64,000 bases of DNA, taken from NCBI GenBank assembly GCA_001311565.1, contig BBBM01000001.1, forward strand, positions 62,001-126,000, written 5' to 3'. Source of the stretch: Desulfothermus okinawensis JCM 13304 (lineage in GTDB: Bacteria; Desulfobacterota; Desulfovibrionia; Desulfovibrionales; Desulfothermaceae). A program made the translations under genes and the position numbers. The notes below the pieces were generated by a model, which searched no databases, was not told the origin of the DNA, and saw nothing but the letters and a program-made list of their open reading frames with translations. Below, one piece after another: positions 22,885 through 28,248 of this stretch. The stretch's first letter is position 1. Each line of letters starts with the position of its first letter.

Positions 22885-23224
22885 TTAATGGTCGCACACA
22901 TTTTGACCTGTTTGAAGGGTACCGTTTAGATATGCTTCTACCACCTTTTCTGGATCATCTGATGGAGCGCCAACTAATACTTCTATACCTAATTGATTAA
23001 AAAAAATCTATGGCCCTGGCTCCCATGCCACCTGCTATCACCAATGATACCCCCTGTTCCTTTATCCACGGTGGAAGAATACCTGGTTGATGGGGTGGTG
23101 GGGTTACTATTTGTTTTCCTGTAATTGTCTTTGACTCAGGGTCCACATCAATAAGTGCAAATTGCTCACAGTGTCCAAAGTGCATGCAAAGTTTCCCCTG
23201 TGCCACTGGTACAGCTATTCTCAT
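22885..23224 (-). CDS. NifX/NifB-type Fe-Mo cofactor domain protein (last gene of the cluster)
   Basis: Small protein of the dinitrogenase iron-molybdenum cofactor biosynthesis fold (RNase-H-like, binds metal clusters). RIAVPVAQGKLCMHFGHCEQFALIDVD at the start, VIAGGMGARAIDFF in the middle. A T8 reading (plus-strand A8, about 22999-23006) needs seven; corrected, it continues NQLGIEVLVGAP to 22885, total about 112 residues. GGAGG precedes ATG 23224. The CMHFGHC motif supplies two Cys and two His for metal. Confidence 0.87.
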
Positions 23225-23236
23225 ACAACATCCTCC

Positions 23237-24118
23237 TTATAACTGTATGGTTTTATTTAGTTTGTCAAAGACGTTAATAAGCTCATCCCTAACCTTACTG
23301 TCCTTATATTCTATAATATTTGTCTCATTTATCTGGGCCTTGGTGAAAATAGGATCATAGGGGATCTTGCCAAGAATTACAAGCCCGTTCTCTTTACATT
23401 TTTTTTTCAATGGTTGCTGCATAGTCTTTATTTAAATCCCATTTATTTACTATCACCCCTGCTGGGACATTAAAGTGTTTGGACAAGGACACCACCCTTT
23501 CCATATCATGGATCCCTGAAACCGTTGGTTCAGTTATAATAACAACAAAGTGGGTCCCTGTAACTGAAGCAATAACAGGACATCCAATACCTGGAGGGCC
23601 ATCTATTAAGATTTTATCAAGATTTTTTTGAACTTGCTATCTCCCTGGCCTTTTCCCTCACAAAAGAGACAAGTTTTCCAGAATTTTCTGCACCTATTCC
23701 AAGTTTTGCATGCACCATTGGACCATACTTTGTTTCTGAGACCATCCAATGTCCGCACCACCTATCCTCAAACAAGAATGCCTGTTCAGGACAAAAATTT
23801 ACACATACCCCGCAGCCCTCACAGGAATTTAGGTCTAGATTTAGTGTATTATTCTCAATATGGATGGCATCAAAACGACACATCTCTTCACACGTGCCAC
23901 AAAATACACATTTTTCTTCTACCCACTTAGGCTCATGTCCACTATAAAAATCCTCTTTTTGTAAGATGTTAGGTTTTACAATTAGATGCAAATCAGCTGC
24001 ATCTACATCACAATCTGCCAGCACCAGTTTTTTTAAAAAGGGCAGCCAATGCACCTGTAATTGAAGTCTTTCCTGTTCCACCTTTTCCACTAATAATTAC
24101 AATTTCTTTTGGTTCCAT
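23237..24118 (-). CDS. ParA/Mrp-type ATPase with internal 2x[4Fe-4S] ferredoxin domain
   Basis: MinD/ParA-superfamily P-loop ATPase (ISGKGGTGKTSITGALA) with a ferredoxin domain inser­ted after the first third: CVFCGTCEEMCRF and CEGCGVCVNFCPE. After it come DGPPGIGCPV (Walker B region) and a VNKWDLN-type motif. Family members pair with a second such ATPase and NifX-like proteins in anaerobes (orange-protein complex). Three runs (about 24029-24035, 23624-23630, 23399-23407) have an extra base. About 290 residues. Role probably in metal or Fe-S cluster loading; inferred from context. Confidence 0.9.
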
Positions 24119-24149
24119 AACTTATCATCCTACTTTAAATTAAGCTCTA

Positions 24150-24994
24150 TTACCATTTTTTTGAAAGTTCAAAGGCTTTATCCTTTAAATCCACGAACAT
24201 GTCTTTGTATTTAGGGATCTCGTCCACAATGACCTTTCCCTCAGAATACAACCTGGCTATTTCTACATCATGTTTTATTTCCATTAAAATGGGAATATTT
24301 TCGTTTTTTTAAATAATTATGTACCCTGTCATCCCCCATGTCTGAGCGATTTATAACTACTCCAAAGGGGATATTTAGTTGTCTGGTGACCTCTATTGCC
24401 AGTATTAAATCATTTAAACCAAAGGGAGTTGGTTCTGTAACCAGGATTGCCACATCAGAATCTTTTAATGTTTCAATAGTGGGGCAGGAGGTCCCGGGAG
24501 GGGCATCTAAGATACAGATTTTATTTTCATCTATATGCTCTTTTAACCCCTTAATAATTGGAGGTGCTATGGCAACTCCAATATCTAACCTACCTTCATA
24601 GAGATCTACATTGCGTTTCTTAAAATGATTAATCTCTCCAATCCTTCTGTCAATCTCTTCTATGGCCTTCTTAGGACAAATATGATAACATGCCCCACAG
24701 CTATGACACAAATCATAAAAGAGCATGGGAACCTTTTCTATAACAATAATAGCCTTGAACTCACATATTTCTGTACATTTTCTGCACCCATCACAAAGGG
24801 ATTCGTCGACCTTTGGAACCTTTACATAACTTACTTTATTTTCTACAAAATCGCCTTTTAAAAAAAAGGTTTGCATTTGGTTCCTCTACATCACAATCCA
24901 ATAAAATAACTTCCTCATCTAATGCCTTTGCAAGATTTACAGCCACAGTGGTCTTTCCTGTTCCGCCTTTGCCTGAGGCAACACATATTCTCAT
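24150..24994 (-). CDS. ParA/Mrp-type ATPase with 2x[4Fe-4S] ferredoxin domain (paralogue)
   Basis: Paralogue of the following gene. N-terminus RICVASGKGGTGKTTVAVNLAKAL, deviant Walker A with Lys; ferredoxin cysteines CDGCRKCTEICEF and CHSCGACYHICPKKA; then ILDAPPGTSCPTIE and VVINRSDMG. Three runs (about 24858-24865, 24304-24310, 24155-24161) have an extra base; the end is 24150 if the last is corrected (ELSKKW) and 24130 if not. Its ATG overlaps the stop of the preceding NifX-like gene (ATGA). About 280 residues. Confidence 0.9.
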
Positions 24995-25354
24995 ATCCAA
25001 TGCCCCTCTTTATCAAATGTTTTCGCAGGCTCAAGTTCCCCTGCCTTGTATGCATCTATTGCTTGTTTTACTGTTTTTAGATCAGTTAAATATATTGTAA
25101 TTTTAGCTGCTGTTAATACATTAAAGGCCTTTGGCCCAACATGGCCAGTTATTATTGCCTTCACCCCTTCAGAAGCAACATTCTGGGCAGATTGAATCCC
25201 AGCCCCCTGGGGAAGGTTTAGATTCTGTGAATTATCTATAACCTTGTACTCTCCTGTATCTGTGTCATATATTAAAAACTTTTTTTGCCCTTCCAAACCT
25301 TGGATCTACTTCTGCATTTAGATCATCTCCTGTGGTAGTTATTGCTATCTTCAT
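24991..25354 (-). CDS. NifX/NifB-type Fe-Mo cofactor domain protein
   Basis: About 120 residues. Canonical family start KIAITTTGDDLNAEVDPRFGRAK, then GAGIQSAQNVASEGVKAIITGHVGPKAFNVL. A T7 near 25290-25296 should be six. A good ribosome site (AAGGAGG) precedes ATG 25354. This subtype, with PRFGR and GHVGPKAF, is the one found next to paired ferredoxin-ATPases in sulfate reducers and methanogens. Confidence 0.92.
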
Positions 25355-25383
25355 AAAACCTCCTTATAAAATGAAAAATAATC

Positions 25384-25412
25384 GGCCCTGCCAACAAATT
25401 TCTGGCAGGGCC
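25384..25412 (-). terminator. Intercistronic hairpin inside the ORP-like cluster
   Basis: Perfect 10-bp stem GGCCCTGCCA/TGGCAGGGCC with a 9-nt loop, between the DUF5320-like gene and the downstream NifX-like gene. No strong T tract follows on the minus strand (GATTATTTTTC), so it may be an attenuator or mRNA-stability element rather than a full terminator. Confidence 0.55.
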
Positions 25413-25417
25413 TCTCC

Positions 25418-25741
25418 TTATTTTTGGGCCAATTGATTAAGTCTCTCCTCAATCTCCTTAAGGGTGTTTCTCAAATAATTCGCCTCTGCTTCAAGTGTCC
25501 TTTTCTCGGTTTCCTCATCATAAGGCACGTTGTATGGTGTGGGCACATAAGCACCATAGAAGCACCACCTACCTCTACCCCAAAAACCTCTTCCACACCT
25601 TCTGCCTCTTCCAAATCCCATACCTCTACCATAACCTCTCCCATATACCCAGCCTGGATGAGAACTACCTGAACAATATCCAAGACCTCTTCCTGTTCTT
25701 GGCCCTGCTCCAAGTGGTCCAGTCCTATCTCCTCCTGGCAT
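25418..25741 (-). CDS. DUF5320-type Gly/Arg-rich small protein
   Basis: 107 residues beginning MPGGDRTGPLGAGPRTGRGLGYC, the hallmark of DUF5320 proteins, then a Gly/Arg/Trp-rich segment and a C-terminal coiled-coil-like helix (EAEANYLRNTLKEIEERLNQLAQ). ATG 25741 has AGGAGG upstream; the longer upstream frame is A/T-run sequence and unlikely. Function unknown; regularly found beside NifX-like and ferredoxin-ATPase genes. Confidence 0.85.
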   Translation of the reverse strand: MPGGDRTGPLGAGPRTGRGLGYCSGSSHPGWVYGRGYGRGMGFGRGRRCGRGFWGRGRWCFYGAYVPTPYNVPYDEETEKRTLEAEANYLRNTLKEIEERLNQLAQK

Positions 25742-25770
25742 GGCTAACACCTCCTTTTTTTTAATTTTTT

Positions 25771-25977
25771 TTATTCCCTTCTTAAAGGGACGCTGCAATT
25801 TGGACACATCCGCTCAAAACACGGCTGGCCCCTAAAATGCTCTTCTTTGTAACCACATTTTGGGCAAATACACATTCCATCGGGCTGACCCCGCATCCTG
25901 CCACCTCCACCCATTCCTCTTCCACCTCCCTGACTTCTACCTCCGCCTTGACCTCTTCCGCCTCCTTGACCTGGCAT
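25771..25977 (-). CDS. Gly-rich protein with C-terminal zinc ribbon
   Basis: 68 residues: MPG then a low-complexity GQGGGR-type repeat, then a four-Cys zinc ribbon CICPKCGYKEEH...CFERMCPNCSVPLRRE. AAGGAGGTGG precedes ATG 25977, so an independent start is well supported. If the T7 at about 25994-26000 is one base too long, the upstream NifX-like frame reads straight into this gene, making a NifX-zinc-ribbon fusion with an internal start. Confidence 0.75.
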   Translation of the reverse strand: MPGQGGGRGQGGGRSQGGGRGMGGGGRMRGQPDGMCICPKCGYKEEHFRGQPCFERMCPNCSVPLRRE

Positions 25978-26353
25978 AAGCCACCTCCTTAAAATTTTTT
26001 TGCCTAGATCCAAAGCATCCAGGCATAACAAAAGTTCTATGGTTTAATGTTCCCAAAAAAATAAGCTTCCTTTATTTTGGACACACAACCTGATGTGAAG
26101 GGGATAACCATAACCCCGTTTGATGATAATATCTCAAAATATTGCCTTGATATTCCTCCACAAACTAATACATCTAGTTGCAGATGCATGACTTCTTTTA
26201 ATCTATCAAAAAAACTCAGATGTAGAAATGGTTATCACTTCTTCGGATACTATATTAGCCCCCTTATGCGTTATTACCAAAAAACATTTAGCAACATCAA
26301 ACAGTGGAGCTATTCTTCCATTCCAGATTGTGAATGCCACTTTTTTTATTCAT
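25937..26353 (-). CDS. NifX-like protein, first gene of the ORP-like operon
   Basis: KVAFTIWNGRIAPLFDVAK at the start, VLVCGGISRQYFEIL in the middle, and RTFVMPGCFG near the end are typical of the NifX-like branch in orange-protein clusters. Runs at about 26341, 26217 and 26055 are each one base long. Depending on one further T7, the protein ends in an Arg-rich tail at 25937 or continues into the zinc-ribbon gene. The proposed start ATG 26353 lies one nucleotide downstream of the predicted sigma-54 transcription start, with no Shine-Dalgarno, so the mRNA may be leaderless or the real start may be an internal GTG/ATG. Confidence 0.75.
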
Positions 26354-26364
26354 GTAAATATTGA

Positions 26365-26380
26365 TGCAGATTACATGCCA
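26365..26380 (-). promoter_or_regulatory. Sigma-54 (-24/-12) promoter of the ORP-like operon
   Basis: Minus strand TGGCATGTAATCTGCA: GG and GC at exactly the -24/-12 spacing of consensus TGGCAC-N5-TTGCA, with two non-consensus bases (T at position 6 and C at position 12). Predicted start of transcription about 26354. Confidence 0.75.
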
Positions 26381-26442
26381 ACCATGTAATATTTTATTCT
26401 CTAAAAAAAACAGATAATTAACGTTTAACTATTACATCTTTC

Positions 26443-26491
26443 CAGTTGCAATACTGCTACCAACCTTAAATTTCAGTTGCAAGATCGCTAC
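26443..26491 (-). promoter_or_regulatory. Tandem upstream activator sites
   Basis: Two near-identical 18-mers, CAGTTGCAATACTGCTAC (26443-26460) and CAGTTGCAAGATCGCTAC (26474-26491), 31 nt apart (about three helical turns). The first has dyad symmetry GTTGCA-N4-TGCTAC. They lie about 90-135 nt upstream of the predicted sigma-54 start, where activators of this class bind. Likely bound by the activator encoded just upstream (inference). Confidence 0.65.
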
Positions 26492-26521
26492 TAATTTATT
26501 CAAAATAGTAATGAATAATTC

Positions 26522-26719
26522 GCTTATTCCCTTAACTCCGAAATCTAAAACTTTTGATGTGTCTGTGTATGTGGTCTGTGTCTAAAGTTCAACGTTCAAG
26601 GTTCAATGTTCAAAGTTTTAGGTGCTCTTCGCCCTTCTACCTTCATCCTTCGCCCTTATACTAACAACTAAAAACTAATCACTAATCACTTGATCCATAA
26701 CGGAGTTAAAGGAATAAGC
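26522..26719. mobile_element. MITE-like repeat with terminal inverted repeats (copy 2)
   Basis: Bounded by GCTTATTCCCTTAACTCCG (26522-26540) and its inverse CGGAGTTAAAGGAATAAGC (26701-26719), one mismatch in 19. The 160-nt core is a mosaic of degenerate 7-mers (TGTCTGTG-type, TTCAACG/TTCAAGG/TTCAATG, CTTCGCC/CTTCTAC, ACTAATC/ACTAATC). The same motif families occur at 4259-4450 in opposite orientation and partly different order. No coding capacity; probably a non-autonomous repeat. Confidence 0.6.
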
Positions 26720-26751
26720 AGAATGGATAATTCTCAACTAATATACAGTAA

Positions 26752-28109
26752 CTAACTCGACCTTTTGGCAAGTTGAATATTATATTTTTTTTAATTTTCT
26801 GTAGAGGGTAGTTTTGTGGATTCCAAGGAGCTGGCAGTTCTTTTTGGATCGAAATTATTTTGTTTAAGGGCTGAAATAATCAACTGTTTTTCCATTAAGG
26901 ATTTTGTTTGTTTTATGTTGTCGCACAGAGGGGCTGAAGGAGAAAATATTTCTTCAGGCAGGTGTTCCACATGGATAATGTCCCCAAAACACAAAATCGA
27001 TGCCCGCTCTATAACATTTTCAAGTTCCCTTATATTCCCTGGCCAATTGTAGGTCATGAGTAATGACAAGGCCTCAGGAGAAATCCCTTTAATATTTTTG
27101 CCAAGGAGCTTGTTAAAATGGGATATGAAATTATCTACGAGAACAGGTATGTCTTCTTTTCTTTCCCTTAAAGGGGGAAGTTCTAGTTTTATCACATTTA
27201 TTCTGTAATATAAATCTTTTCTAAATTGTTCTTTCTCAACTAACTTGTCTAAATCTTTATTTGTAGCACATATTATTCTTATATCCACAGACACACTTTT
27301 ATTTGACCCAATTGGTTCAAAACTCCTTTCCTGTATAACCCTTAGGAGCTTGGCTTGAATGGATATTGGCATATCCCCAATCTCGTCTAGAAATAGGGTT
27401 CCCTTATTAGCTGCTTCCAATTTTCCTTTTCTGTTTTGTGTGGCCCCTGTAAATGCCCCTTTTTTATATCCAAAAAAATTCTGCTTCAAGTAGGGTCTCA
27501 GGCAGGGCAGAACAATTTATGGCCACAAATGGACCATTTTTTTCTGGGACTTAACTCATGTATGGTTCTTGCTATGAGCTCTTTTCCTGTACCAGTTTCC
27601 CCTAAAATAAGCACAGTGGAAGGAGAATTGGAAATAGTTGGTAATATTTCAAATATTTTTTTGCATCTTGAGGGATCTGGAAACCAAATTTCCCACCCTA
27701 TATTTAGAGGAAAGTTCTAATCTTAACCGTTCAATCTCACTTAAGTCTCTAAAAGTCTCAGCCCCACCAATTATATTCCCTTTATCATCAGTTAAGACCG
27801 CGGTTGAAACACTAATGGGGACCTTTTCACCAAGGGCATTTATTATAAACCCTGCTTGTCCAATTATTGGCCTCTTATCTTTAATGGTCTTTTTTTAAAG
27901 GACAATTTCCCTCACACATATTAGATTTAAAAACTTCAGCACAAAACCTACCAATAACCTCATCACGGGAGATTTTTGTTATCTTTTCTGCTGCATTATT
28001 AAAATAAGTTATCTCCCAATTTAAATTTACAGTAAATACCCCATCACTTATACTTTCAAGGATGGATTCTGCCAGCCCTAAAGGCAATTTTTTTCAAATT
28101 TTCTTTCAT
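26752..28109 (-). CDS. PAS-domain sigma-54-dependent activator (bEBP)
   Basis: N-terminal PAS domain ([28 protein letters not shown]) with a Cys cluster C-x8-C-x3-CPL, a central AAA+ sigma-54 domain ([59 protein letters not shown]) and a Fis-type HTH ([14 protein letters not shown]). At least six runs carry one extra A/T. One GGG in the HTH has lost a G (near 26822), so the literal frame hides the HTH. Corrected end 26752. It lies upstream of the sigma-54 promoter and tandem sites, so most likely controls the ORP-like operon, as DVU2106 does in Desulfovibrio vulgaris. Confidence 0.9.
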
Positions 28110-28248
28110 TGTGCTATTTACCCTGGTTTTTCTACCTAGTTAATTTCTATTTATCTTTTTTTGCAACAGTGAAAAAAACCTTAGAAAAATTTCTTTTTAA
28201 GTAGAGAAAAATTGTTCAAAAAAACTCCAATTATCTCGAAAATTGACT

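Follow-up and report, generated by a model that had tools for sequence, protein, structure and literature searches.

The DNA analyzed here is a stretch of 64,000 nucleotides (the window) from Desulfothermus okinawensis JCM 13304. Between positions 22900 and 28120 it carries the gene for a bEBP-type activator, an intergenic region with a predicted promoter and two predicted operators, and the genes of an orp-type operon, for "orange proteins" of Fe-S type. The features are listed below in the direction of transcription, with their positions in the window.

26780–28120, minus strand: activator gene, PAS, sigma-54 AAA+ (GAFTGA) and Fis helix-turn-helix (HTH) domains; frame broken, ends approximate
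26510–26780, no strand: dispersed intergenic repeat (47 matches in the genome) that separates the operators from the activator gene
26476–26491, no strand: predicted promoter-distal operator, same palindrome as the proximal one and 31 bp from it (pattern searches and shuffles)
26445–26460, no strand: predicted promoter-proximal operator, imperfect palindrome GTTGC-N6-GCTAC (pattern searches and shuffles)
26365–26380, minus strand: predicted sigma-54 promoter TGGCATGTAATCTGCA, −24 GG and −12 GC (spacing, and retention in relatives)
26354, minus strand: predicted +1, from the promoter spacing with the T of TGG as −26
26351–26353, minus strand: ATG of the first gene, without a Shine-Dalgarno sequence; homologous to the start in leadered relatives
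25771–26353, minus strand: first operon gene, Nitro_FeMo-Co (NifX/ORP-like) domain, Gly-rich linker and Cys-rich tail; frame broken, approximate
25418–25741, minus strand: gene for a DUF5320 protein (PF17253, 2.3e-29)
24991–25342, minus strand: Nitro_FeMo-Co (NifX-like) gene; frame broken near the start, start approximate
24140–24991, minus strand: MinD/Mrp-type P-loop ATPase with two 4Fe-4S motifs; frame broken, ends approximate; homologue L035:8847-9701
23237–24109, minus strand: second MinD/Mrp-type P-loop ATPase with 4Fe-4S motifs; frame broken, ends approximate; homologue L035:9710-10582
22900–23224, minus strand: ORP-domain (Nitro_FeMo-Co) gene; frame broken near the end, end approximate

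The NifX/ORP and MinD/Mrp ferredoxin-ATPase gene set of orp operons is thus present at this locus. Intact homologues of the first gene lie at L035:7523-8059 and L034:215-790, and the homologue of the ORP-domain gene (L035:10597-10932) matches the ORP part of MrpORP at 2.3e-40. The MrpORP fusion gave no match over the cut-off in the host genome (G000), G002 or G004, where a separate ORP-domain gene is found instead. The activator gene lies upstream of the promoter on the same strand as the operon, and its product, an AAA+ activator with GAFTGA and a Fis HTH, has the composition of a cognate bEBP. Two congeneric species have intact orthologues of it (70 and 67% identity) with the PAS-AAA+-Fis architecture and GAFTGA, and in a third congeneric species an orthologue at 83% identity is ended by the contig edge.

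Nearly all genes in 22900–28120, like genes throughout the genome and rpoN among them, are broken by one-base length differences, often in homopolymers. Because rpoN and the activator gene are broken in the same way, we read the broken frames as homopolymer-length assembly errors; the first gene is itself broken in the host because the assembly is full of such breaks, and the 44% completeness of the assembly probably reflects them. A copy of rpoN was found in 5 of 5 genomes, that of the host as fragments under the cut-off because of its frame breaks. The repeat at 26510–26780 is made up of GAACATTGAACCTTGAACGTTGAAC-like and GGGCGAAGGATGAAGG-like blocks; it is absent from G002 and G004, in which the operators abut or overlap the 3' end of the activator gene.

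Sigma-54 promoters have a consensus of the TGGCAY-N5-YTGCW type, and TGGCATGTAATCTGCA matches this pattern with a GG-GC distance of 10 bp. The exact −24/−12 spacing claimed for this element in an earlier note on the same DNA, at 26380–26365 on the minus strand, is right in both sequence and coordinates, and counting the first T of the element as −26 returns the same predicted +1, 26354, with a possible error of 1–3 nt. By itself, the promoter match is weak evidence and no better than chance in the window: allowing up to 2 mismatches, the pattern has 19 matches in the 64 kb, compared with 15.2 expected from shuffles. The text available from PMC4641369 quotes the consensus as tGGcacg / tTGCt.

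Further upstream lie the 18-mers CAGTTGCAATACTGCTAC (26443–26460) and CAGTTGCAAGATCGCTAC (26474–26491), which share 15 of 18 letters on the plus strand, start 31 bp apart and each form an imperfect palindrome, GTWGC-N6-GCWAC. The same note had described them as tandem 18-bp sites 31 bp apart and 90–135 nt upstream; letters, coordinates and period are all correct, and the operator centres fall ~98 and ~129 bp upstream of the predicted +1. The sites are thus tandem, phased and within 80–150 bp upstream, as in a bEBP enhancer. The single operator pattern, with up to 2 mismatches, occurs at chance level in the window (27 matches against 23.9 expected from shuffles). The exact word GTTGCN6GCTAC has 2 matches in the 2.77-Mb host genome, both at this locus, and the reversed-pattern control has 0; on this ground the two exact operator copies are not due to chance. 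A pattern search found no second tandem operator pair elsewhere in the host genome.

Related genomes had been suggested as a place to look for these sites upstream of orp genes, and we ran this search across 297 genomes of the order with a tandem pattern: two GTWGC-N6-GCWAC words, 15 bp between them, and no more than 2 mismatches. Eight genomes matched. In 7 of them the match lies just upstream of the same orp first gene with its sigma-54 promoter, and the eighth match (G107, 2 mismatches) is in an unrelated place. Since the operator pattern was derived from these very loci, its enrichment at them is partly circular, and the 297-genome search is the fairer test. The seven genomes with the unit belong to one genus (G000, G002 and G004), a second family (G020 and G053) and a third family (G063 and G066), and the promoter is kept at the same place in all six relatives of the host. 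The operator-to-promoter gap is 64 bp in G000, 63 in G002, 75 in G004, 75 in G066, 74 in G063, 74 in G053 and 73 in G020, which gives two classes, 63–64 bp (2 genomes) and 73–75 bp (5 genomes), about one helical turn apart, while the operator period across orthologous loci is 31–33 bp. At the corresponding place, G032 has a pair of perfect GTAGC-N6-GCTAC palindromes whose period of 33 bp falls outside the searched spacing. The bEBP-type geometry proposed in the earlier note therefore gains support from the bEBP gene directly upstream and from the recurrence of the pair, its 31–33 bp period and the promoter at orthologous loci. Because the operator word is unique to the locus in the host and 7 of the 8 matches in the order are at the orp first gene, we consider this, on sequence grounds, to be a real promoter-enhancer unit of the orp operon, to which the PAS-AAA+-Fis activator encoded next to it most likely binds.

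For a wider survey, genome contigs were scanned with a peptide of the first gene, W[QK]x[RH]IAP[VL]FD, alone and without any promoter criterion. The scan matched 41 stretches, 38 of which were confirmed. A bEBP of this family adjoins the gene in 35 of the 38 loci and is missing in L048, L053 and L059; L048, the locus of G053, keeps the sites without a bEBP beside the operon. In Desulfobacterota loci the activator gene points the same way as the operon. It is divergent from the operon in an acidobacterial-type clade of 14 loci, of which 13 have acidobacterial titles and one (L068) is titled Deltaproteobacteria. Among the 25 loci outside this clade, which include G000 and G020, the operator pair was reached by 0 of 200 shuffles in 18 and had a p of 0.01–0.04 in 3 (L072, L079 and L078); in the remaining 4 (L051, L070, L071 and L074) the shuffle-scored search found no GTWGC-type pair. 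The same search found such a pair in 0 of the 14 acidobacterial-type loci. Read by eye and without statistics, L054–L056, L060–L068, L080 and L082 mostly have paired TTGCA-like words ~32 bp apart between the divergent activator gene and the operon. Several loci of the acidobacterial-type clade have an in-frame ATG within the promoter −12 box.

The ATG of the first gene (26353–26351) begins 1 nt past the predicted +1, so the predicted 5' leader is ~1 nt and a start at 26354 would make the mRNA almost leaderless. We predicted leader lengths from the promoter position in 39 loci, comprising 37 of the 38 scan loci (L053, without a start codon, was dropped), G000 and G020. In these 39 loci, which come from several phyla, a leader of 0–4 nt is predicted for 22 and one of 14 nt or more for 14, with no locus at 5–13 nt; the strict promoter pattern was unmatched in 3 (L070, L071 and L074). 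When the same upstream stretches were dinucleotide-shuffled, a mean of 0.14 loci and a maximum of 2 fell at 0–4 nt (300 rounds). By a script rule, a Shine-Dalgarno sequence is present in 0 of the 22 short-leader loci versus 12 of the 14 long-leader loci, and the start codon is homologous in the two kinds (MKxxFxxWQ versus MARIAIHYWQ). Near-duplicates occur among the loci (L066/L067, L056/L082 and L070/L071), so the 22 do not stand for as many independent events. On a quick tree of the activators, with L070 and L071 set as leaderless by an after-the-fact reading, there are at least 5 switches between leaderless and leadered. That reading, made by eye and left uncounted in the survey, finds TGG...GC with a G after the GC in L070, L071 and L074, with leaders of 2, 2 and 1 nt, respectively.

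A strict search for sigma-54 promoters fused to an ATG (TGGCAY-N6-TGCW followed by the start codon) in 7 genomes gave 19 matches. Six of these are the orp first gene, in 6 different genomes; in the seventh genome, G003, a contig end falls within the activator gene. A control search with leaders of 20–24 nt gave 13 matches. That sigma-54 genes of these genomes are leaderless in general is unsupported, as the other 13 of the 19 strict matches either fall within longer frames or have short frames downstream, and the strict pattern revealed no other convincing sigma-54-ATG fusion in the 7 genomes. Comparison across the loci establishes, as predicted features, the promoter-operator unit with a conserved period and phase, an activator gene next to it and the geometry of the start codon.

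The PAS domain of the activators contains a C-x8-C-x3-C motif (Cys54, Cys63 and Cys67 in the numbering of the G002 activator) that is invariant in 44 of 44 orp-type activators; in the intact L035:6045-7406, for example, the cysteines are residues 54, 63 and 67. DVU2106-like activators have one extra Cys at +5. In a first activator search, which covered 29 loci (L004–L032) and gave frames in 22, the motif was found in L004–L010 and L017 and was absent from the other 14. More speculatively, this motif may be a sensor of Fe-S or redox state through which Fe-S-type genes are controlled.

We are highly confident that the locus is an enhancer-dependent promoter of an orp-type operon, at which the adjacent bEBP would act on two palindromes, sigma-54 transcription would start at ~26354 and the first cistron would probably be leaderless. 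The PAS-AAA+-Fis bEBP encoded by the adjacent gene would bind as dimers to the two GTWGC-N6-GCWAC palindromes, three helical turns apart, and a hexamer would be assembled at the operator pair. Looping would then bring it to sigma-54 RNA polymerase at TGGCATGTAATCTGCA, where ATP hydrolysis would open the promoter; the transcript would start at ~26354, and the ribosome would begin at an ATG 0–2 nt from the 5' end, so that the first cistron would be read leaderless. Binding, looping, the actual +1 and leaderless translation are the steps that we infer.

The unit could be real and translation of the first gene nevertheless begin elsewhere than at the near-5' ATG, either at a start codon further in or on a longer transcript that comes from an upstream promoter or from read-through of the activator gene. 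Such a reading could draw on the loci where an in-frame ATG overlaps the −12 box (starts at k = 13), as well as on the co-oriented activator gene upstream in Desulfobacterota loci. We regard it as unlikely, given that the leadered relatives with a strong Shine-Dalgarno sequence start at the homologous codon, that leader lengths are split with no locus at 5–13 nt, and that the ATG of short-leader loci has no Shine-Dalgarno sequence before it; moreover, the activator gene is divergent in acidobacterial-type loci, so read-through cannot serve there.

It is considerably less probable that the palindromes bind another regulator, such as a repressor or a global factor, and that the neighbouring bEBP acts elsewhere. 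The operators are predicted sites, and G053 keeps them without a neighbouring bEBP, but the site word covaries with the HTH of the bEBP: one ten-residue type of HTH sequence goes with GTWGC-N6-GCWAC, [GD][IV][ST]KDTLR goes with GGGCG-N7-CGCCC, and GI[ND]PSTLYR goes with neither. The pattern searches, moreover, found no second tandem pair in the host genome, and the period and promoter phase are typical of bEBP enhancers. Least credible of all is a chance resemblance, in which AT-rich intergenic DNA happens to contain a sigma-54-like word and a fortuitous repeat. The relaxed single-site and promoter patterns do stand at shuffled expectation in the window, yet the unit is kept in three families of the order and the operator word occurs at a single place in the host genome; with the exact-operator, order-search, gap and 25-locus shuffle results, this reading is already contradicted.

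Building on the enhancer-dependent promoter, we propose with moderate confidence that the sigma-54 promoter and the start codon of the orp first gene are fused, so that a strictly enhancer-dependent promoter would yield a leaderless mRNA. The fusion would be under selection, recurring in Desulfobacterota, Acidobacteriota and Kiritimatiellae/Lentisphaerae-type genomes with at least 5 leaderless/leadered switches; the activator would keep its tandem-dimer layout and change its DNA word, and the PAS Cys triad would read an Fe-S or redox state. The locus offers a compact model, open to testing, in which an activator and its operators have kept their geometry (a period of ~31–33 bp and a phased gap) and changed the word. 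It also leads to the prediction of a class of sigma-54-controlled leaderless transcripts that, at a single operon, has been conserved in different phyla. If 5' ends confirm the leaderless start, the question would become why an Fe-S-type operon is translated without a leader.

The conserved, probably leaderless sigma-54 transcript is the novel part; the portions of the open-access literature consulted contained no earlier report of leaderless sigma-54 genes. Leaderless mRNAs are known from maps of transcription start sites (PMC3616915, PMC3847290, PMC4842269 and PMC5243855); in the available text of these papers the promoters named are of the sigma-70 or extended −10 type, and the leaderless genes are not tied to sigma-54. 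The predicted transcript of the orp first gene would resemble these mapped mRNAs in beginning at its start codon or close to it and in lacking a Shine-Dalgarno sequence, and would differ from them in its sigma-54 promoter.

The closest known system is the DVU2106/orp system. In the available text of PMC3897727, orp1 and orp2 of D. vulgaris Hildenborough (DvH) are two divergent operons, controlled by DVU2106, with IHF sites and one palindromic site per promoter. Shine-Dalgarno sequences of the DvH orp genes are mentioned in the legend of Fig. S1 of that paper, which thus does not describe these genes as leaderless. As far as these descriptions go, the two systems have in common a sigma-54 promoter, a cognate single-component bEBP in the cluster, upstream palindromes and NifX/ORP plus MinD/Mrp-type genes, whereas DVU2106/orp consists of two divergent operons and the present locus of one co-directional operon with tandem sites. 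DVU2106 is listed with GAFTDA in the part of PMC4641369 consulted.

We took ten stretches with MrpORP over the curated cut-off; a bEBP is present in nine (none in L116), and eight of these were treated as DVU2106-like. The eight activators have GAFTDA and the helix [GD][IV][ST]KDTLR, and on a quick tree their clade is separate from that of the activator described here (SH-aLRT 93 and 95). The latter thus forms a sister clade to DVU2106, with GAFTGA instead of GAFTDA and another recognition helix. A GGGCG-N7-CGCCC-like pair reaches p ≤ 0.015 in 7 of the 8 DVU2106-like loci, this being the word inferred for the relatives, which may not be DvH's own; in L119 and L121 the best-scoring pair of this type differs from the pair picked by eye. 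A GTWGC-type pair was found in 0 of the 8. The published IHF2 site of the D. vulgaris orp1 promoter, combined with −24/−12 spacing, matched 9 of 348 genomes, none of them among the ten MrpORP genomes. A second, more distant bEBP (42% identity, GAFTDA) occurs at L120:14444-14700, followed by a GTTGC-N6-GCAAC-type pair 32 bp apart; the operon after this pair begins with a heterodisulfide-reductase-like Fe-S gene. Because the DVU2106-like loci carry GGGCG-type pairs and none of the GTWGC type, the layout appears to be common to both systems and the operator word changed. The locus, as judged from these comparisons, works like the DVU2106/orp system, yet not through that exact regulator.

NtrC-type two-site enhancers, such as that of glnA, have paired dimer sites about three helical turns apart, ~100–140 bp upstream of a −24/−12 promoter. 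The present locus has the same layout, with another activator family and another DNA word. Set beside these systems, it appears to be an ordinary kind of unit, an orp operon's bEBP enhancer, that is unusual in two respects. The layout is conserved but the operator word has changed, and in several phyla the sigma-54 promoter is predicted to be fused to the start codon.
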